NCBI GenBank assembly: GCA_947561715.1
Contig: OX387197.1
Coordinates: 3,477,001 to 3,541,000, forward strand
Reading direction: 5' to 3'
Source of the DNA: Ascidia mentula
Taxonomy: Eukaryota; Chordata; Ascidiacea; Phlebobranchia; Ascidiidae
Length of the DNA stretch: 64,000 nucleotides
Shown here: piece by piece, positions 6,001 to 62,971 of the stretch
How positions within the stretch are numbered: position 1 is the first letter of the stretch
Layout of the letters: each line of letters begins with the position of its first letter
Program-made: the position numbers and the translations under genes
The notes under the pieces: model-generated
Told to the model about the DNA's origin: nothing
The model's database searches: none
What the model saw: the letters and a program-made list of their open reading frames with translations, nothing else

Positions 6001-9000
6001 AGTAAATTATGTTGTAAGCATGTTTGCATTGAGTGAAGTCCCATTTCATGTGGTATAAAAGTTGGGTGGTCTTGTTTCAGACAAAAGCTGTGTTAATTGT
6101 ATAGAATAACGATGCTTCTGTATATTCCTCTGTTTGTGCTATTGCCACTTACATACAAAACTTCAGGAAATAAAAAAATGCTCCAAAATCTCATATTCTT
6201 TGCACCAATACCTCACCTGCCACAGTCATTACCTTTTTCTCTTACATTTTAGGAAAAGTTGTTGATCATTAACTCTGTTAAGCAAATAATTAAATCTCTG
6301 CACTTCGCTGTTAGGTTTTGCGAGCTGGCATGCTTCAATGGAATGGATATATTCCGCGTGTTTGATTCCATGAATTATTTACCCAACATGCAATTGGGAA
6401 TCGAAGCTGTGGGTGAAGCTGGTGGCGTTGTTGAGGCTGCGATCTCATACACTGGAGACGTTTCCAACCCTGACAGAGTCACAAAATATGATTTGAAATA
6501 TTACCTTGAACTTGCTGATGAACTTGTTAACATGGGAACACACATTCTCTGTATTAAGGTTTGCACAGTTCACGGTGTTTATAATTTGAACCACTACTTG
6601 CACATGTTTTGAAATTATAATTTTTACTGTGAAAAAAATAGTTTTGTAATGTTTAACTTTATAAAAATTGGTTTATTTCCATTTGCCTCTTGCTGATTCA
6701 GTGTTTTTTGTTCAAATAGTTTAGTGCAAATTTAGAAATCAAAACCCATAAATTTAAAATGATATTGCACCAAATATATTTAATATTACTCATATTACAC
6801 AGTAATTTTTTAAGCATAACTCATTTTTACTTTATGTGACTTCTTTTTTCTTTTTGTTCTAACCTTGTGTCTGCGCTGCTCAGGACATGGCAGGATTGCT
6901 CAAACCTCAAGCTGCCCGAATACTTGTGAGTGAACTTCGTGCAAAATATCCTCATATTCCCATCCATGTTCACACTCACGACACATCTGGAGCTGGTAAA
7001 CAGGAAAAATTTACCTTTAAATTTATCTTCTCTAAAAGTTGCTTAAGAGTTTGCTCGCAAATTATTACGACACAACTATTACTTGGCTGACAACCTTTGC
7101 TTGTTAAATATTTTTTGTTTCATTCAATTTAATCCTTAATTGCAGGCGTTGCCTCTATGATTGCTGCTGCTGAGTCTGGAGCTGACATTGTTGATTCAGC
7201 GATCGATTCCATGTCTGGTATGACATCACAACCAAGTCTGGGAGCCATTGTGACATCACTTGAAAGGACCAAGTTGGACACAGGTAAAAACTTGTCACAT
7301 GTTAATTGTTAAACAAATTTGCACTGAGTTTAGAGTTATAGAATTTAAATCAACACATTTCTTGTTCAAGTAGATTTAAAAAAAAATATCTAGAAAGATA
7401 AGATATTTTTGCTATTAGCTTGCAATGATACTTTTAAGTAATTGAATGTTCTTATGTACTAGGTATCTATTACATAAAAAAATTGTTCATAAAACCAACT
7501 CGTATCGCAATACAGGGATTCCAATGAATTATCTCAACCAATACAATGAATACTGGGAACAAACGCGCCAACTTTATGCACCGTTCGAATGTACAATCAC
7601 AATGAAATCTGGTGATTCCAGTGTTTACCAACATGAAATTCCTGGAGGTCAATACACAAATCTACACTTCCAAGGTGGGCAAATTTTGTATTATTTTTAG
7701 TCAACACAATTACTTTATTTGTTTGTCTTCTTAAAGTGTTGATTGTTGATTAAAGAAAGAAAGAAGTGCTTATTTTTGCTTTCAATAAGCTGTCATCTAC
7801 ACTTTCAATCATAGTATAGATGTTTGTTGCAATAATATGGATGTTGGATGTTTTGAACAAACATCCGTGGGAATGTTTTGTTGCAATATAATCTAAGCTA
7901 TCTAATTATTTTTTTACTTTCAGCACATTCTATGGGACTGGGAAACCAATTCTCTAAAGTCAAGGAGCGTTACATAGAAGCTAACAAAATGTTTGGTGAT
8001 CTTGTCAAGGTATGCAGATTGTATTTATGAGCGATTCCTTCATTGATTGAGGTGTGACTCTATAAGATTAAATCAACCTTTGGGACTAATATGGTGTTGT
8101 GTTTTTTATTGACCAATATTGCCTTAAAAACATGTATACTCAGCTGTTATACATGAATATATTTTTATTGCTTTGAAAGTGTGTTTCCTTCAAAGAAAAT
8201 TTTTACTAACACAAAAACTTGTTGCAGGTCACTCCGTCATCGAAGGTAGTTGGCGACATGGCACAATTCATGGTGCAGAACAATTTATCCGCAAAAGATG
8301 TCGAAGAAAGAGCGGAGGAATTGTCCTTTCCCAAATCTGTCATCGACATGATGAGGGGGGTCATTGGTTACCCACCTGGTGGTTTCCCCGAGCCTCTTCG
8401 TAGCAAGGTAGAATTTTGTGATTATTATGTGTTTATTTGTGTACTAGAAATCACTATGTCAGTGTTAGCATGATGATTGTTTTGTAGGGAACACAATTTG
8501 TTTGCTACCGAAAAGATTTGCATGAAAATATCTGTAGGAAATTTATGAAATGTTTTGAAACATTCTTTTTTCTTTATGCATCTCAGTTTTATAATTTTTT
8601 TTTAGCAGGCGTTTTACTGTTTTTTCTGGGAAGATTTTAATAGAAATTTAATCCAATTTATGTGTAATCATTTGCAGATAGTTCGAGATCACCCAATCAT
8701 TGAAGGTCGTCCCGGAGCGTCACTAGAACCTCTGGATTGCGAACAACTTAAGCGTGACCTGATTGAGGAACATGGCTCTGTGACTGACGAAGACGTTATG
8801 AGTGCAGCCATGTACCCACAGGTTTGTTATCATAACTTTTAGTTGACAATGTATTTCTCTAAACAACAGGCGTTGAATCATATTTTTATTTTATACCAGT
8901 AGAACAGTTCTTCAATTTTACAATGCTTGAATAGAACTTTAGGTGATTCATATGTTACGATTTTATGTTGAATATGATGTCTAATAAAACAGAAATCACG

Positions 9001-50148: not shown

Positions 50149-53100
50149 CTAAACCGCAATAACAGACGCTTCATAAACACCTTTCTGAAGATTGAAACAA
50201 TGTGTCCAGACATCTGTAGTCGGATCATAAACATCAACTGAATTCCTTACATCTCTTAAAAACATGTCTTTTGTGAAAAACACGGATTTAGCATGTAACT
50301 ATAGTTCAATGAAACCATGGCTAGATAAAAAGCTCGTTTCAATTCAGCAATAGGTAAATAAAGTCTTTTGAGAACGGGAAAAACTTCCACTCAGAAACAT
50401 TACATCTGTTTTACACTCCAATTCATAGCTGTAACTCAGGAATTTATTTTAAGGAATTGTGCTATAAGTTAGTAAGTACATTGTATAAGCTGCAGACAGA
50501 TGGCCACTGTTTCGACCTAAAAAGTGGAAGTCTTTGCTTGGCCGTTTGGACACCAGCTGCACTGATGAGACTTTTTAGGTCGAAACAGTGGCCATCTGTC
50601 TGCAGCTTACACAATTCATATTATTGGCCTCACATTGGTTAGTACGTACACTTGAAACATCAAAGAAAATCATACCTATGGTTCGTAACAGTTATATTAT
50701 ATTGCATAGCACACGCCCGCTTGGCAGGACTGTATTAAAATGATAAAGGGTGGATATTGAAAAACTTGCACCTAATGCCTGATGAAGAAAAAGTTACTAT
50801 AACCCAATTCTTATATGTGTAATGAATCTGAAACTTACGATTGTTCGCCACCAACTACATAAATCTTTCCATCAAGAACACAAGCAGAGTGAAGGAAACG
50901 ACGATTAAGGAGAGGAGAAACATATTTCCATTTGTTAGCTCTGGGTTCGTATTCTTCAACTGTTTGCAGGAGGTCAAGATTACGACCACGACCTCCTGTT
51001 AGATTAAAACTTGGCTTATTGCAGTTCTTAACTTTCTGTTTCACATAAAAATGAAAATTGTTCAAAATACAGAAACTTAAATTCAGCAGTGTGTACTTAA
51101 TCCACTCAATTATTTTTGCCACCCAAGGTCCATGTTTAATTAAAAGGGAATTTACTACGTGGTTTAGGTCATTTGTAATGCTTAACTGTACCAGATATAC
51201 ATGTTACATTTAAACTTTTGCCAACCAACCGAATTTTGAGAACCAAAAGTACTTTAAATTTATCCTAAATGTATTGCAGATCAACACCGCGGGCAGGAAG
51301 AAAGTATATTAGAACGGTTACCAAGTATATTTGCACCAACCTATTGCATATATCTTCCCTTCAGTTTCAACGCATGCGAAAAGACATCTTGCTTCAGTGA
51401 GAGAAGCGATTTTCGTGGAACTGCTTGAACGGGGATCGTAACTTTCACAAAAACCTAATGATTCACCATCATAGCCACCAATACAGTACAAGACATCTAA
51501 AAAAGTATTTCCCCGTTTAAAACTTAATTTTCCTGTCAGCACACACCACATCCATGTATTAATTTATACACATATCAGTTCTTGTCTCGTTTAGTGTAAA
51601 TAAAGCGACCAAAACAATGTTTAATTCGGCTTTTTTTAAACGTTCTGTGTCTTTAAACGAAAATAAAAATCCTTAAAAGGCTTCTTAAGAAAAGTATGTT
51701 TTTTCATGCCAAATCAAACATGGAAGATTGAAAGGCCGATATAAATAAAAAGTCTGTTAAGTACATGATCTTACTGTTGATTGAACACATTTCGTGTGCA
51801 CATCTTCGTTGTAACATTTTAAAACAGTTTCTCCATCTGTTCTCCTTGATGTCATAAACCAAACACGATGCAACTATCCCATTTTTTGTATAACCACCAG
51901 TGAGATATATGCAATCTACAACAAAACAAGCCAATCACAGCCGGAAGAAAACGATTTTTTTTTGTTAAGGCTATTGGTTTTATTTAAAAACATCCAAAAT
52001 TGTTCTTCACTGAATCAGATAAAGTTGTACATGAGGTAAACTCATTCATTAATGTCTTGAAATGGCATACGGAGAAAACATTACAAGCAAGTCAATTTAT
52101 AATCACGGTGTAACTTTTAGTGGTTCTGCAGACAGATTGAGGAAAAAAATCAGTGACTTTTAAAGTAGAATGCAAGTTTGTATCTTGCGCCTGTTTAAAA
52201 GATTACAAGGGCAACTACCTTTAAAAAATTTCTCGAGTGTTGATTCGCAGAATATCTAAAATAATCTTTTTTTTGCATATATAGGAAAATATATATTGTG
52301 TTAATTACAACAAAGTTTTAACCCAGAGAAATAGCTTTTTATGATGTGACAAAGTATATATAACACGTGGCCATGCTAAATAAATATAATAAATTTTGCT
52401 GTTAATACTTTTAAGGTTTAAAACCCAACACAAGCCCAAATGTAAACTTTTATGGTATATTGACAACGACAATAAAGTTTAGCAGCAACAATTAATGGGG
52501 ATATCCAGATATAAAAATTATTCTAAAAGTTTAGTGTTTCTGAGCATTGATAAAACTTTGACTGACCTTGAACAACTGCTGATGCAACTTCACTTCGATT
52601 TTCCAACATATCAGCAATTTTTATCCAGTCATTATATTCATCCAAGTTCATCATCTCACAACTTGATGTAGCTTTATTTCCACCCAACACATAAACAAAA
52701 TTTTCTATTTTGGTTGCTGATGCATATGCTCTGCCAGTATTTAGTGTCTGAAATAGTTTTGTGATGTTTAAACAACATGATATAATAGATAACACATAAG
52801 TACTTCACATATTTTTTTTTATTTCTCACAAAAAATGTTCGTATACAAAAAATGTAACAAACTAAATAAATCTGAAAAAATAAAACATACTGGCAAATTT
52901 TCATGTTGTTTTGTTTGGATGTTATACTTTATACAATTTCTTTCTGATCCTTTACCGCCAATAACAAGAAAACCAGACAAATCTAAAATAAATGTTAACA
53001 CAGTGAGCATCAATGGTAGCCGGCAAGATTTCTTTGTGCTTATGTATGAATGTTAGCATTCCTATTTTTTGTTGTGCAAATAAAAAATAAATTTTGATTT

Positions 53101-55530
53101 ATAGTAAACACAGAATTATAGCATTATTTGTACCACGTTGATCATTCCACATTCGAGGAAATCTTCCAAATGAAGCATCCATTACTGCAATGCAACAGTC
53201 ACTGTGTTTCCTCACAAGGTGCTGCAAAATAGAATAATTTCCTAAAATTTCATAAACCACAGCAATATATTTACCTCATTTCTAACTGTAGTTGCAAGAA
53301 AGTGATTGGAAATAGATGAAAGATCAAGTTGTGAGAAAAGATTCACAAACAAATCCTCTCGATGGGAAGGATTGAAATTGACCCATTGAACCATCCCAGT
53401 AAAAACCGCTTCTTCAATCTACATTCAACAAACATTGTGTATTATCCACATAGTTATATTTATCTGATAACACATTTGCTTGCACTTGGTTGCTGTGTCA
53501 TTTCTAGCATTTAACATAACTTGTAAAATCTATAGCCACCGATCTGTGAGAAAAATTCTTTCCATTAATTTAAATGCAAAGAGCATTTCAACTAAAAGTT
53601 TCTTTCACCAAGTCTGTGCTGCATGGTATGAAAAGCATTGACAAACTTACTGTGACAATAAATAATGATCCTATCAGTAATTTACGCACAAAGAAATTTT
53701 GTACAAAACATATTGACCAATGTAACATTTTGGTGCTTATCAATACAAAAAACCCAAAGAACATCATATAAAAACGAGTACAAAAAAACTTACAGATAAA
53801 TCGGCAAAAACAAGTGAATCTTTACAATATAAAGATGGAACAAATACATAAAAAAACATACATAAAAAGTTATTACCCCTTTGTTCTTCTGTGTGATAAA
53901 TGCAGATATGTCACCAACATCAAGTTGCATAAAATCCTCATGTTTTACAACTGTTGCAATATTAGCAACAATCATTTGGTTTATTTTCTCTTTCAAATCA
54001 TCAAGATTAAACCGAGTAGCATAAGCTCTAAGCTTTAAGCAGTTGTCAGTTGAAATGATCTCAAGAAGAACTTGACTGCAAAATAGTTTCAACTCTGAAA
54101 CACAAATATAACCAGATTAACAAATCTCTTTACAAGCAAAATTAATTTCAGCTGACAAAGCCACATCTTCACTTTTGATTGATGACCATGGCTGCCAAAC
54201 AATTAAATCAGAATATACACATAACACAAAATGATTCATAAGAGAAAAATATTGCACTTGAAATTAGGATAACAAACCAGCCATCTGTGTATAATCAGCA
54301 TCTTCCAAAACTTCCAACACATTTTCTTCTGTTACTTCAATATCACCCGTGTAAATATAATCCAATACACTTTGCAGTCTTTTTGGTGGAATGTTGTCCA
54401 CTTTAACAACCTCCGAGTATTTCTCCTTCATCTGTGAAAAGGAATAAATACAAGAGACTTGCAACACAAACAAAGTGGTCATATTATATTTAGATGGCAT
54501 TTATCAAAAATACTTTTGATATGAAGCAAATTGGAGCCAATAATATGATTTCTGTGAGCAGCATACATATGGCCATTGTTTTGACCTACAAGATCTCATC
54601 AGTGCACCTAGGTGTGTATCTCCACTTTGCTTATATATATGACTAATGTGACACAGGGCCTGGTGGCACTAATGGTTGAGCATTTGCTTGGCCATAATGT
54701 TTCCACCTTGTTTCCTCTATGAGGATAATGGTCATTGTATTTTGTCACCACAAAGGGGAAGTCTTTGTCTAGCTGTTCGGTTCGCAAAGTCATCTGAAAG
54801 AGTCACATCAAGCTGCACTGTTGAGACCATTAAATTATTAAACATGAAGTAACAGTCTTGATATATCTAAGAACTTTTTTACACCTGATGAAGCGAGAGG
54901 TACTCACGAAAGCTAGTGTGCATTTATGAATACAAAAGTCAATCTTTTTAAGAGAGTGCCAAATTAAGAGAATAAAGTTCGTGATGAGACCATGTAGGTC
55001 GAAACAGTGGTCATCTGTCTGCAGGTCACATGAGTACTTTAAAAATGTGTAAAACAGCATTTATGCACAGATTTTTGTATTACCAAATCATATTTAAACA
55101 TATTGTTAACATGAACAAATGTGATGAAGTGATTCATTACTTTCAGGTTACTCGGTGAATAAAGCAAGGATCTAATCTAGCAGACACATTAAAATTACTT
55201 TTGCAACAGTTATATATCCATAATTTTACAAATAGTAAAACTTATACAACCTTTGATTATGACATTTTTACATACAAATCACTTACCTCAACACCAAATA
55301 AAGTATCAAAATAATCTGATGTAGAACAAACAACAGCATCGTGAATTGAATAGTTTTCTCCTTGGGAGCAAAGTGTTCTGTTGCAAAATCGTTTGGCACC
55401 TGTTCTGTCACTAAAACAGTGGAAAATAGTAACTTGGTGACTATTCATAACACTTAACACAGTCTTACTTGTTTAGGAAGTTCATAACTTTCTGGTGATG
55501 CAAGTTTATTGCTTCCTGTGTCGGCCTCAT
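50149..55530 (-). CDS. BTB-BACK-kelch (KLHL) protein, 12 exons, 540 aa
   Basis: KLHL proteins are substrate adaptors of CUL3 ubiquitin ligases. Minus-strand exons: 55530-55469, 55410-55287, 54431-54278, 54094-53877, 53418-53275, 53221-53134, 52982-52891, 52747-52567, 51915-51775, 51496-51341, 50995-50839, 50254-50149. The sum is 1623 nt. The start MRPTQEAINLHHQKVMNFLN leads into a BTB domain (SIHDAVVCSTSDYFDTLF; LDYIYTGDIEVTEENVLEVL). BACK follows (FCSQVLLEIISTDNCLKLRAYA). Six kelch blades start at FLVIGGKG, FVYVLGGN, IYLTGGYT, LYCIGGYD, IYAIGGRG and IYVVGGEQ. A second in-frame ATG is not needed. Which KLHL subfamily it belongs to cannot be told by eye. Its kelch exons resemble those of the neighbouring kinase gene. 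Confidence 0.9.
50486..50609. repeat. Perfect 39-bp inverted repeat (foldback form of the dispersed repeat)
   Basis: Arms 50486-50524 and 50571-50609 are exact complements, with a 46-nt loop. It sits in the last intron of the KLHL gene. The right arm and loop edge read CTGATGA, a 5-bp stem with one G-T pair (GACTT/AGGTC), then GAAACAGTGG. Perfect arms imply recent origin or gene conversion between arms. Confidence 0.9.
54571..54606 (-). repeat. Dispersed hammerhead-like repeat copy in KLHL intron 2
   Basis: On the minus strand it reads TGCACTGATGAGATC, a short loop, GTAGGTC, then a diverged AAAACAATGGCC. It is flanked by GGAGCCAATAATATGA (54531-54549), which also occurs at 1737-1754 in a PC intron and, reversed, near 50616. 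Confidence 0.5.
54885..54916 (+). repeat. CTGATGAAGCGAGAG...CTCACGAAAGC motif (second hammerhead-like type)
   Basis: CTGATGA is followed by a stem of GCGAG pairing with CTCAC (one mismatch) and then GAAAGC. It lies in KLHL intron 2 between two copies of the other repeat type. Confidence 0.4.
54982..55027 (+). repeat. Dispersed hammerhead-like repeat copy in KLHL intron 2
   Basis: TGATGAGACCATGTAGGTCG, then AAACAGTGGTCATCTGTCTGCAG. The segment from GGTCG on matches the right arm of the palindrome at 50571-50609 closely. Confidence 0.6.
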
Positions 55531-57672: not shown

Positions 57673-60600
57673 TTAAACCGAAACCACAGTTGCACCATAT
57701 ACTGATTTTTGCAAGGAGAAAGATGGTGTCCAGACCCCATAAGCAGGATTGTAAACTTCAACCGAATTGAGTGGGTATATAATGTTTCTAAAATACAAAT
57801 GAAGTGTGAGAACCAACAAACATTATGTTGTGTTATATTTTTGTTGCATTTTAGACTCATAGTAAATTTAACACATGTACCAACTTTAAATTAACTTCGA
57901 AAATTGCAAGAGAAGAGCTATCTAGATACATATAAATGTTACTAGAACAACTTTGTGTCCACGCTTCTGATTTTATAAAACATGTTTCGCTTTTTAATAA
58001 AGCATCTTCAGTTCTTATTCAATCTATTTGAGTGTTGCTGATTAGGTAGATTTCATGAAGTAAAAACAATTTATTGCTAGATATATATATGTATAAATAA
58101 GTAGAAGGTAACACTTTGTGCCTTTTCAAATATACCAACCTAACATGGAAACTGTTTCTAATATCCTGAAGAACATTTCTTGCAGTTGTAATGGAATTTA
58201 AAATTAACATTGCTATGTGACTTTATTTGCTATTGAATCTTGCATCGTGTCATACTCATTTACAATTTTTTAATCTCTTCTCAGATTTGCATATTGCCAG
58301 AGTTGCCTTCCAATATGAGAAACAAACAGAACTTCGATAATTCATGCAAAACTTACCTTCGCCCACCCACAACATAAATCTTCCCATCAACAACGCAAGC
58401 AGAGTGATTGTAACGAAGAATTTGAAGAGAAGAAACATTTTCCCATTTGTTAACTCGAGGTTCGTATTGTTCCACAGTTGACAGAGGGAACAAAGCATCA
58501 CCCAAACCTCCTGTCAGATAAAAAAAATGAGGCTCTTTTGGTTCTGCTTTTGTTCAAGGAAATATTTGTGGGATACTTAAATCAAATCAAGTGTAAATTA
58601 CTATCATAACTATACAATAACTTAAGACATACACTTACTTTATCAATAAAGTTACTAGTACCAATAAAAAGCAATTAAATCGATTTCACTTTGCACAAAG
58701 GACTTCTAGATAAATAAACTAAATAAGCAAAAGTTAAAATAGTATGGACAGTGATAAAGAGGTTAACGGGTCAGCAAACAGGATCTGCAAACAAACAAAC
58801 CATGCCTACTACATGACTATTCTAAAACCATCACCACTGACCAATTGCATAGATCATCTCTCCAACTTCCACACACGCAAAGGCATATCTTGCATAATTA
58901 AGAGAAGCAATTCTAGATGATGCTTTTGCTCGCAGATCATGAAATTCACAAGACTGCATGCGACGCTTGCCATGGCGACCTCCTATGCAGTAAACCCCAT
59001 CTAAAGCGATTTAAAAGTTCAATATCAGTTATATAGCATTTACAACGAAACACGAAATTATCAAAAAAAATTCTCCAGGTGTTTAAACTACACTTCGATG
59101 TTTTTAAATCTCAAGACATGCTCCATGTACACAATGATTATGAATTAGGATATTTAAAGTGTGTCACCATGCTTATCGTACAATTTAAAAAAGAAACTTA
59201 AAAGGTTTTTCTAACAGTTATCATTGCTCAATTTATACAGAGATAATAAAGCAGGATTTCAGTACGGTCACCTTGTTCAAAATCATTTGCATTTTGGGGC
59301 AGAGAACTTTAAAACAGCGTAGAGGATAAGTAACTTTACACTTACTGCCAACTGAACACATGCCGTGTCCCTTTCTCGGCTGTAACATGTGAAAACTGTC
59401 TCTCCATTTGTTTTCAGTGATGTTGTAAACAAAGCAGGAAGAGGACGTTTCATGTTTTCCCAAACATCCTGAGACATATATTTGATCTGAAAGATCAAAA
59501 AGAAAACAAGGTTTTCCAATTGTGATATATTGCATGCATGTCCAAGGTTATAAGTGCATATCACCGACACAGTAAGCTTCCGAGTTATTGCAGTAATTAT
59601 TAAATATAGAAAGAACATTTGATTTGTAATTTAGGGTCTTTGTACAAACAGAAAACTATCTAAAAACTTGTAATGCAAGTTTAAGCCATTGAATTACTAA
59701 AGAAAATTACTAAATGTACCAACAACTCACCTCCAACAACAGCTGATGCAGCCTCCTCTCGACCTTCCAGCATGTCGGCAACCTTTACCCATTGTTCACT
59801 TTCCTCCAAGTTCAACATCTCACAACTTTTGCTTGGACCACTTCCACCCATTACAAAGACCCTGTTTTGCACTCTGGCTGAAGTTGACCATGCTCTTGCA
59901 GAATGTAGGTTCTGAACCAAAATTATTTTTTCTTACTAATTACAAGTGTGTTTCTTAAAAATCCCCAAATACAACAAATATTGAGTCATTACTGGTAAAA
60001 GTTGATGTTGTTTTGTGGTGACGTCCCATTTCACACAACTTCTGTCTGAAGAAACACCACCAGCAACAAGAAAACCTTTAAAATTCAAAGGACACTACTC
60101 ATGTCATTGTGCAGAGCCCACATGGTCATGATTATGCAATTGTTGCAAACTCTACTTTGACAAAATACATGGTAAATATTTAAAGCCCATATAAAATCAT
60201 TATGTCAGTAATAAATTGAGTGAAATAGAAAAGCACACATGACAGGCACCCAGGTAAGTCTTACACACTTTATGTCTTAGCAAACAAAATAATGTCTAGT
60301 TTTTATCCCACATCCTAGACTATAAAACCATGCACAAACAGTTACCACTTTCGCTGCTTGTTGCTTGGTATGATGAGTGGGACTGGTAGCAGTAATTAAG
60401 AGAATTTCCTTCCCTTTGCGTGTTTTGAATCCCAGCCCCACCAATTCTTTCACCTATAAATCAATAGTTTCATTTTAAAAATGACACGGCAGCATGGGCA
60501 CATCTTATGTTACATACATCACACTTTTAACCTAATGGATAGTGACATCACAGCTGATGTTGCATTAAAGTCATTTTTACCTGATATGTAGGGGCATCAT

Positions 60601-62971
60601 ATTTAAAACATCTTTGATACTTCGGTTTAAATTTTTTTTATTTCATTGTAACCCCAGGCAAAAGTGCCTATAGGTTGTAGAAAAATTACAACCAGAAATA
60701 CATCAGTTTAAGCTCGTTTAAATCGACAAGTTATGGTGAGACGTATAAAAATTTTCATTTTATATTTTGTCTTCTGTTTACAAAACACACACTTAAAACA
60801 CGTGTAGTGTACTCACAAGTCACCAATCTTACCTTGTTCTTGCGATGAATGGGTAACAAAAGAATCGGTTTCCTGGTTTTGGTCACTAGGTTGAATTTGT
60901 AGTTCAGCATCTAAGGGCCTGATACTTTGACCATTTTCCAGCTCTATAGAAATTAATACTCATGGTGTAAGCTACATGTTAGCCATAACAAAAGACTACA
61001 GAAACTTTAAACAGTGAGTTTGTTAAAAAAATATTTACCATTTTCACTTCCACTTAAAGACCCATGGGGCACATCACCCTGCTCTGAAAGGTTGCCTTCA
61101 TTGGGTGGCATTTGCAGTAGAGCACCACTTCTCTCTTTAATTAAAAATCAATTGTTTTCAAAATTTGTGTCAATTTTTGGTTTGTCAAGTTACATACTAG
61201 TTGCAATCACAGTTTTGTGATACTATTTTAAGTGATGTAAAAGCTAACTTAAACAAGAAAATACAATATATTTGTTAAATAAACAACCTTCATTTCTGGA
61301 TGTTCCAACATTTGTGTGTTGTATCTGCAATGCTGCAACTTCTGGTACTTGTGATTCATCTACCAAACAAAACTATTTAAATATTAAGGTTGTAATTAGT
61401 TTTTACTAAAAAAACAGACTTCCTTTTGTCTTAAACAATGCATGTTGAAAATGTTTATGCTTACACAATTGTGGACTTTCTTTGCGTTAAGATAAAAAAA
61501 AAACATGTAGCATTTGTAACCCTCAACTTGGAAATGTATAATAATGCTTTGTTTGAAACATGCCTTGTACTTGAGGTAATTGTTGATTTTCTACATTGGT
61601 CTGAATGTTATATTCAATTGGCGGACCAATCTCAAGGCCTACGTCTGAAAATAATGAAAGAAATATATATATACGAACAGTGAATGTACAATCAGGTATT
61701 CAAAATTTAAATTACCAATAATACCATTACACAACATTGCACACAAAATGGTTTGTATTGCTGTGTATGTACCAAAGTAAAGTATATAATAAAGAGCTCA
61801 CCATGAAACTTCCATGTTTGTGTGGAAAACTGGCTGAGTGGTACAGTTGGATTGTGGGTAGCAGTTGGATTAACAAAATGCATGTTTCTTGCAGCATTTG
61901 CTACTTGCTGCAATATTACTCTGGGATCTTGTATGGAAAGGAGCTTTTGGAATTCATCACGGACACCTAGCATGTCTGGACGTTGATCCGGGTCTTGATC
62001 CCAACATTTGATCATCACCTGTTCAATCACATCAACTATTTGTCTGTTGCCACCATCGCTTGCTTCTTTAAACTCCTTAAAGGCTTCACAATCTGGCCGA
62101 AGTCCAGTGTTAATTTTGCGCCAAAACTCTTGTTCTGACTGGTATGGTTCTTCACGACTTAGCAACTCAAAGTACATGATACCACAGCTGTAAGCATCAT
62201 GTTCTTTTTTAGGTCTTGCATATTGAAAAAGCCTTTCTGGAGCTGCATAGTAAAGCGTCAACCCCTGTGATTGTCCTTGGTCAGGGCGTGGATCAGTTGA
62301 TCCTGACGTCAGATGGACCAACCGGGCACATCCAAAGTCGCCAAGTATGCAATGCAGGTCGAGTGTAATGAAAATATTTTCTGACTTTAAATCTAGGTGA
62401 ACCAATCGCTTAGTGATTCCACAGTTGTGAATGTAGGCAACTGCTGATGCTATTTCAGTTGCCATGCGAAGAATTAAACCATGTCCCAGTTCAATGTTGT
62501 GATTCAAAAGCAGAACTCTAAGGTTTCCACCTCCATAAAATTGCATTACAATTCCAATTGCTCCAGGCCACTTGGTATATCCATGCACTGTTGATATGTT
62601 GTCATGGTGGAAGTGAAGTAAAACCTTGTATTCATCCTGAAATCTAAAACATTGTTTCATGTAATTTTGCAACAATGCATAAGACAGTAAAACTTACTTA
62701 ATTTTCAACATTATTTGCTCTTGCTCTCCACCAGTGACTTTAAGGCATTTAACGGCCACAAACCCCAAAATTTTGTGCTTTACCACCAAAACCTTTCCAA
62801 AAGTACCTTGACCAACTTCACACAGTGCAACATCGCAAAAGATGTTGGCTGAATCAAACTCCCGTAACTGCAATTCAAGGGTTAAATTGAGAATATGTGA
62901 GAAAAATACTGCAGACTGGTACTTACAATGGCAAGCGATTTTTGATCTGCCGTCGAAGAAGCAAAAGCCAT
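57673..62971 (-). CDS. RIPK-like protein kinase fused to a six-bladed kelch propeller (785 aa)
   Basis: Minus-strand exons: 62971-62927, 62867-62698, 62643-61802, 61644-61564, 61359-61288, 61134-61039, 60943-60833, 60453-60346, 60075-59993, 59911-59731, 59486-59346, 59000-58842, 58510-58357, 57787-57673. The sum is 2358 nt with every phase agreeing. The kinase (about residues 25-310) has GQGTFGKV, the VAVK lysine, VHLDLKSEN as catalytic loop, GDFG, AAPE and DQRPDM, so it looks active. HLDLK instead of HRDLK is as in RIPK4/ANKK1. Then comes a Gln/Glu/Ser-rich linker of about 155 aa from five phase 1-1 exons. Kelch blades follow: FLVAGG, VFVMGG, IYVSGC, VYCIGG, IYAIGG, IYVVGG. No BTB or BACK is present. 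The role is unknown; a kinase choosing partners through the propeller is an inference. Intron 4 appears to be GC-AG. Confidence 0.85.
57981..58012 (-). repeat. CTGAAGATGCTTT...AAAGCGAAACATG motif (third hammerhead-like type)
   Basis: On the minus strand CTGAAGA, a stem of GCTTT pairing with AAAGC, then GAAACATG. It lies in the last intron of the kinase-kelch gene. Confidence 0.4.

Follow-up and report, generated by a model that had tools for sequence, protein, structure and literature searches.

The window analysed here, a stretch of 64,000 nucleotides from the ascidian Ascidia mentula (assembly GCA_947561715.1, contig OX387197.1, positions 3,477,001 to 3,541,000), carries on its minus strand a gene in which a RIPK-like protein kinase is predicted to be joined through a linker to a six-bladed kelch propeller. 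The survey of the genome supports the conclusion that this kinase-kelch architecture is repeated dozens of times, largely in tandem arrays, and comparison of the copies reveals a constrained kinase together with an excess of amino-acid change at positions corresponding to the ligand pocket of the KEAP1 propeller. Whether these genes form a tandem family of intracellular, germline-diversified recognition kinases, perhaps with a role in immunity, is in our judgement an evenly balanced question.

When rebuilt from splice sites, 14 minus-strand exons (62971-57673) join in phase into 785 codons followed by TAA, and 12 of the 13 introns have GT-AG boundaries. The remaining intron, after exon 4, has a GC donor that looks real because the same GC donor is present in the exon-4-type exons of the paralogues L033 and L034. 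Recurrence in paralogues far beyond chance is seen for exon 1, for the kinase exons with their phase-1 end, for the exon-4 type and for the kelch exons, and the support for linker exons 5-8 consists of an open frame and splice sites. First exons homologous to that of the window gene occur in L010, L034 and L033 (L033 and L019 being one gene), and L033 and L034 also share with it the 59-base intron that follows; no first-exon homologue was recognised in L035, and L036 and L037 have other short exons. In the encoded protein, Pfam detects a Pkinase domain (E=1.5e-37, amino acids 32-296) and Kelch_1 repeats (E=2e-41) in five stretches, with six blades when the GG motifs are counted; the other Pfam matches are to overlapping kinase or propeller models only. 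The exon reconstruction and the Pfam matches bear out the sequence-only reading of this locus, namely a 785-amino-acid product of 14 in-phase exons comprising kinase, linker and six kelch blades, and the splice sites likewise confirm its remark that the five linker exons (4-8) are all of phase 1-1. The maximum 19-residue hydropathy mean of the protein is 1.53 and therefore gives no sign of a membrane span, a feature that was rejected on this basis.

When the A. mentula genome (195.8 Mb) was searched with the kinase as query, 137 matches were obtained; the 45 closest have about 49-77% identity, apart from the window gene itself, which is one of them and matches at 99%. Because a few of the 45 are fragments, they correspond to approximately 40 genes; both genome searches score the best candidates only, so the family counts are lower bounds. 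Most of the close matches lie in tandem arrays, at C1:1.92-2.80 Mb and C52:0.65-0.70 Mb, where the copies occupy different places, and haplotype duplication in the assembly is possible. By coordinates, 38 of the 45 are followed on the same strand, within 9 kb, by a kelch match, in a count that drew on part of the kelch rows and that represents at most 37 kelch genes, because one and the same kelch lies behind two of the fragments, at C1:1.92 Mb. A same-strand kelch also lies upstream in 15 of the 45, which fits a neighbouring gene in head-to-tail arrays. Three of the seven kinases without a kelch match were fetched, and all three have a diverged kelch downstream. Among the fetched loci, L017 and L034 are one gene entered twice, as are L019 and L033. 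A one-off fusion is rejected by the 45 close kinase matches, most of which are paired with kelch. The large tandem family, like the diversifying pocket and the kelch subfamily in common with the KLHL-type neighbour, had escaped the sequence-only reading.

The proposal that kinase and kelch belong to a single gene is supported by splice phases, by colinear paralogues and by the repeated architecture. In all 17 rows examined, from 15 distinct genes, the last kinase exon ends at a phase-1 GT donor; on the other side of the linker, 21 of 23 rows have a phase-1 AG before the first kelch exon. The order kinase, linker, kelch is colinear in each of the five loci retrieved in their entirety. Between kinase and kelch, six of six intervals gave no match to BTB or BACK (L033-L037 and the window gene), in a search whose BACK queries do detect L039, and BTB and BACK, the criterion for KLHL proteins, are also absent from the 785-amino-acid protein according to Pfam. 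The alternative arrangement, a kinase gene followed by an adjacent kelch-only gene, draws on an AATAAA at 60642 and an ATTAAA at 61141 between the two parts, the sole sequence hint for two genes, and on the fact that the single-gene model is built on genomic sequence rather than transcripts. Against these stand the in-phase linker exons, the splice phases, the colinearity, the kelch downstream of the three fetched misses and the intervals free of BTB and BACK, on which we reject two separate genes as highly improbable.

The kinase of the window gene retains the landmarks GQGTFGKV, VAVK, HLDLKSEN, DFG and APE, so that its earlier description as intact-looking holds at the level of motifs. The nearest solved kinase structure, the best of the 1938 PDB sequences matched, is RIPK1 (E=8e-24), which at 87.8 bits stands ahead of the next protein, JAK3 (70.4 bits), as well as of B-RAF and RIPK2. 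This match to PDB sequences, rather than a tree with named reference kinases, supports the predicted RIPK-like identity of the kinase, in agreement with the sequence-only reading. The more specific link to RIPK4 did not stand: the catalytic loop HLDLK, which we take to be shared with RIPK4, has the counterparts HGDLK, HEDIK and HDDLK in sibling genes, and no RIPK4 chain is among the best 60 of the 1938 PDB matches. Membership in the RIPK4/ANKK1 subgroup was rejected, with no ankyrin repeats detected by Pfam and the resemblance limited to the HLDLK loop. Only prokaryotic kinase models, far under their cut-offs, were matched in NCBIfam. In each of the 21 distinct genes for which the loop sequence was read, the kinase is non-RD, that is, lacks an Arg before the catalytic Asp; the variants are HLD, HGD, HED and HDD. 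For the kelch part of the window gene, the best match among natural proteins is KLHL20 (E=7e-39), designed SAKe propellers scoring higher; its six blades with GG motifs align to KEAP1 and KLHL20, as in a KLHL-type propeller, blade 1 aligning poorly to KEAP1.

To compare rates of change, 24 kinase-kelch loci were aligned exon by exon, of which 23 were used; L052, with two kelch exons only, was excluded from the sets for the ratio of nonsynonymous to synonymous rates (dN/dS), and the exon-10 row of L056, a locus that spans two kelch genes, comes from the other copy. The kinase exon is constrained, with a dN/dS of 0.23 (13 rows representing 11 genes). Variation in the kelch part is concentrated at the two residues that follow the conserved Arg (Val in the last) of each d-a loop and in the b-c loops after GG; over all 253 pairs, dN/dS is 2.6 in the d-a loops and 2.2 in the b-c loops versus 0.50 elsewhere. 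Because these loop classes were defined after seeing the alignment, the test was redone with the ligand-pocket residues of KEAP1, of which a published list gives 20 (PMC10045749). Gly423 was dropped beforehand, the KEAP1 sequence was checked against PDB, and 14 of the 19 remaining residues were mapped. Mean entropy at the mapped columns is 1.81 bits versus 0.52 bits at the others, a value as high being reached in 0 of 50,000 permutations, and dN/dS is 1.91 (gene bootstrap 1.33-2.96) versus 0.63 in the other columns.

The excess also appears in ten pairs with non-overlapping paths on the kelch tree, five of which are sister pairs. With both loop classes pooled, dN/dS in the ten pairs is 2.00 (p=0.0018 for a value above 1) versus 0.56 in the rest (Fisher p=3.4e-7), with little change when the L056 pair is omitted (2.06 versus 0.61); the b-c class alone gives 2.08 (p=0.007), and restriction to the five sister pairs yields 2.52 (p=0.02) versus 0.50. 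Kinase exon 3 has the same translation in the paralogues L033 and L034, which nevertheless differ at pocket positions; their variable loops are separated by 17 nonsynonymous and two synonymous changes, and the rest of the kelch by 17.5 and 9.5, respectively. Collectively, the family is multi-copy and carries a candidate recognition site that is under diversifying selection as gauged by counting methods only.

These features suggest how such a protein might work. The protein would be a cytoplasmic, non-RD RIPK-like kinase with a six-bladed kelch propeller at the far end of a flexible linker, itself encoded by symmetric exons. The propeller pocket, equivalent to the KEAP1 ligand site, would bind a short peptide or a protein, the identity of this ligand varying among paralogues. 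Binding of the ligand would cluster the protein, allowing the conserved kinase domains to trans-phosphorylate and to feed a shared signal into a RIPK-type pathway. The germline would store the diversity, as in innate receptor families, with many copies sharing an output and differing in their pockets. The pockets look as if they were changing fast, as is the case for molecules whose task is the recognition of microbes or other shifting targets, and an immune setting would be compatible with such a mechanism.

Several observations weigh against this scheme of recognition kinases. Random column sets have a dN/dS of up to 3.28, with 1.88 as the 97.5th percentile, five of the 19 KEAP1 pocket residues are unmapped, and two of the 14 mapped columns are invariant, namely Tyr334, which is probably misaligned, and Gly571. 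In the ten pairs, the d-a class alone has a dN/dS of 1.72, which is not significantly above 1 (p=0.13). The ratios come from Nei-Gojobori counting, not from a likelihood model, and gene conversion among tandem copies could distort them. L036 and L058, two of the 23 rows, have no AG at the expected kelch acceptor, and the finding of a downstream kelch on the opposite strand in none of the 45 close kinase matches is a weak control because the copies within a block mostly share one orientation. Pfam finds no death, CARD or ankyrin domain that would tie the 785-amino-acid protein to known RIPK partners, and a RHIM-like motif ([IV]Q[IVL]G) was rejected by a motif scan that found none in this protein. 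Finally, diversification may have been driven first on KLHL proteins, since the same kelch subfamily also sits on these.

Alternatively, the pocket might vary because the array is decaying, with constraint relaxed and gene conversion at work, rather than through selection for diversity. Some kinase matches do contain stops or are fragmentary (C71:10978098, with a TAG; C1:2163398), and the kelch outside the pocket evolves at a dN/dS of 0.5-0.63; nevertheless, the excess change is mostly confined to the pocket loops, where the pooled ratio exceeds 1, and the remaining blades and the kinase are under constraint, so we consider decay improbable. Somewhat more credible, if still unlikely, is the main rival, a family of substrate-targeting kinases outside immunity, in which the variable propeller would pick the protein to be phosphorylated, for development or reproduction, and diversification would follow changing substrates. 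It is established that the kelch propellers of KLHL proteins recruit substrates to ubiquitin ligases; furthermore, the same kelch subfamily occurs in this genome on BTB-BACK or BACK proteins, and the landmark motifs of the kinase are intact. Tens of tandem copies with a near-invariant kinase exon and fast pockets are more typical of recognition families, a consideration that is not decisive.

The linker differs among the paralogues. Between kinase and kelch, L033, L034, L035 and L037 carry from one to six copies per gene of a short symmetric exon of the DVTNPKLPV type, with six copies in L035 and three in L037; the exon was not found in the window kinase-kelch gene, and the peptide may be a docking motif. 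Exon shuffling, which the sequence-only reading had invoked for the phase 1-1 linker exons, is better replaced by tandem duplication of symmetric 1-1 exons as seen in L035 and L037, and an origin of the linker elsewhere is rejected as the first choice because paralogue linkers contain tandem copies of the same symmetric exons. The phase-1 acceptor of exon 9, where the kelch begins, is common to most paralogues and to two loci of the KLHL arrays.

Table 1. Exons of the kinase-kelch gene and parts of the adjacent KLHL-type gene (positions in the window)
Feature	Position	Strand	Description
Exon 1	62927..62971	-	Start codon, MAFASSTADQKSLAI, phase 0 end
Exon 2	62698..62867	-	Kinase N-lobe with Gly loop and VAVK; present in paralogues
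Exon 3	61802..62643	-	Remaining kinase (HLDLKSEN, DFG, APE), tail ending WKFH, phase-1 donor
Exon 4	61564..61644	-	Linker, phase 1-1, GC-AG; homologues with GC donor in L033, L034
Exon 5	61288..61359	-	Linker, phase 1-1; frame and splice sites only
Exon 6	61039..61134	-	Linker, phase 1-1; frame and splice sites only
Exon 7	60833..60943	-	Linker, phase 1-1; frame and splice sites only
Exon 8	60346..60453	-	Linker, phase 1-1; frame and splice sites only
Exon 9	59993..60075	-	Kelch blade 1, phase-1 acceptor
Exon 10	59731..59911	-	Kelch blade 1/2; AR[xx] and GR[xx] positions variable
Exon 11	59346..59486	-	Kelch blade 3
Exon 12	58842..59000	-	Kelch blade 4; AR[xx] variable
Exon 13	58357..58510	-	Kelch blade 5; PR[xx]HSAC variable
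Exon 14	57673..57787	-	Kelch blade 6 and propeller closure, stop TAA
BTB-BACK-kelch (KLHL-type) gene	50152..54500	-	Follows the kinase-kelch gene directly; its kelch belongs to the same subfamily
Parts of the KLHL-type gene	BTB 54267-54500; BACK 53793-54116 + 53245-53418; kelch 52977-50152	-	

The KLHL-type neighbour of the window gene (Table 1) is not the only relative of this kind. L039, at C1:27.03 Mb, combines the same kelch subfamily with BACK pieces upstream, and in the tree the KLHL and kinase-kelch propellers are intermixed, with weak support for the deep branches. Additional kelch arrays of the subfamily, without a scored kinase match, occupy C1:0.65-1.79 Mb and C1:26.8-27.06 Mb (L038, L039) and look like a KLHL expansion because of the BACK pieces upstream in L039; L038 and L039 vary at the same pocket positions. 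On the kinase side, more distant homologues (~40% identity) form arrays at C69:19.28-19.62 Mb and C2:0.8-3.3 Mb (L040, L041), and the three that were read are all non-RD. On C69, 23 of 26 kinases are followed within 10 kb by a TPR-like open reading frame on their own strand, and on C2 19 of 37 are; the controls for this pairing are weak, given that the C69 copies entered have nearly all one orientation and many of the C2 distances are 7-9 kb. Of the 137 kinase rows, 72 entered this count, together with some of the 144 TPR rows; the remaining 65 kinase rows comprise the 45 of the kelch pairing, 11 in a cluster at C70:6.8 Mb and nine exon-2 pieces. With the TPR identification below the Pfam cut-off, we treat the kinase-TPR pairing as a lead. 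In this genome, then, a single kinase superfamily seems to be paired with several partner domains, and a single variable kelch with two different output domains. A tandem repeat lies in L042 at ~6400-8000, beyond the end of a C2 kinase, with units of ~205 bases that each contain an open frame, and long open frames that are retroelement-like by eye lie beside kelch or kinase genes in L038 (230-2460) and in L041 (minus strand, after ~5700).

A broader proposal, to which we give less than even credence, is that the kinase-kelch genes represent an undescribed class of germline-diversified intracellular immune receptors in an animal, consisting of a constant non-RD RIPK-like kinase and a hypervariable kelch pocket. 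They would then be one branch of a modular system, with the kinase superfamily also used with TPR and the kelch also with BTB-BACK, so that a recognition module is wired to phosphorylation or to ubiquitination. If this is true, the kelch propeller, known as a reader of substrates and degrons, has been converted in an animal genome into a diversified surface for recognition carried by a RIPK-like kinase, adding a new fold to the modules of innate receptors. These genes and the kelch siblings on KLHL proteins offer a ready test set, with approximately 40 natural versions of the pocket attached to a kinase that hardly varies.

Among known systems, RIPK homologues of amphioxus, likewise RIPK-like kinases with unusual partners in an invertebrate chordate, are combined with LRR, death, SH3, ZU5 and Zalpha domains according to a survey (PMC9573974), the main text of which does not contain the word kelch. 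Kinase and kelch are fused in one protein in Entamoeba histolytica, a protist, in proteins described as tyrosine kinases (PMC2939887), the sole mention of a kinase-kelch combination in the literature covered. No animal kinase-kelch protein or family is named in the titles or abstract openings among the literature matches listed, a partial coverage that makes this weak evidence. The genes described here share with the vertebrate RIP kinases (RIPK1, RIPK2, RIPK4/ANKK1) an N-terminal RIPK-like kinase followed by a separate C-terminal module, but differ from them in having kelch in place of death, CARD or ankyrin domains, in lacking a RHIM-like motif, and in forming tens of tandem copies with the loops HLD, HGD, HED and HDD. 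With KEAP1, KLHL20 and other KLHL proteins they share the six-bladed KLHL-type kelch, whereas a protein kinase takes the place of BTB-BACK; therefore, the expected output would be phosphorylation and not recruitment of cullin-3. The plant non-RD receptor kinases and the nematode F-box and MATH-BTB families are lineage-specific expansions that couple a conserved output to a diversifying recognition domain. Their recognition folds are unrelated to that of the present family, which looks intracellular and is kelch-based, and if our interpretation is correct, the A. mentula genes would parallel the diversified ectodomains that plants carry on non-RD kinases.

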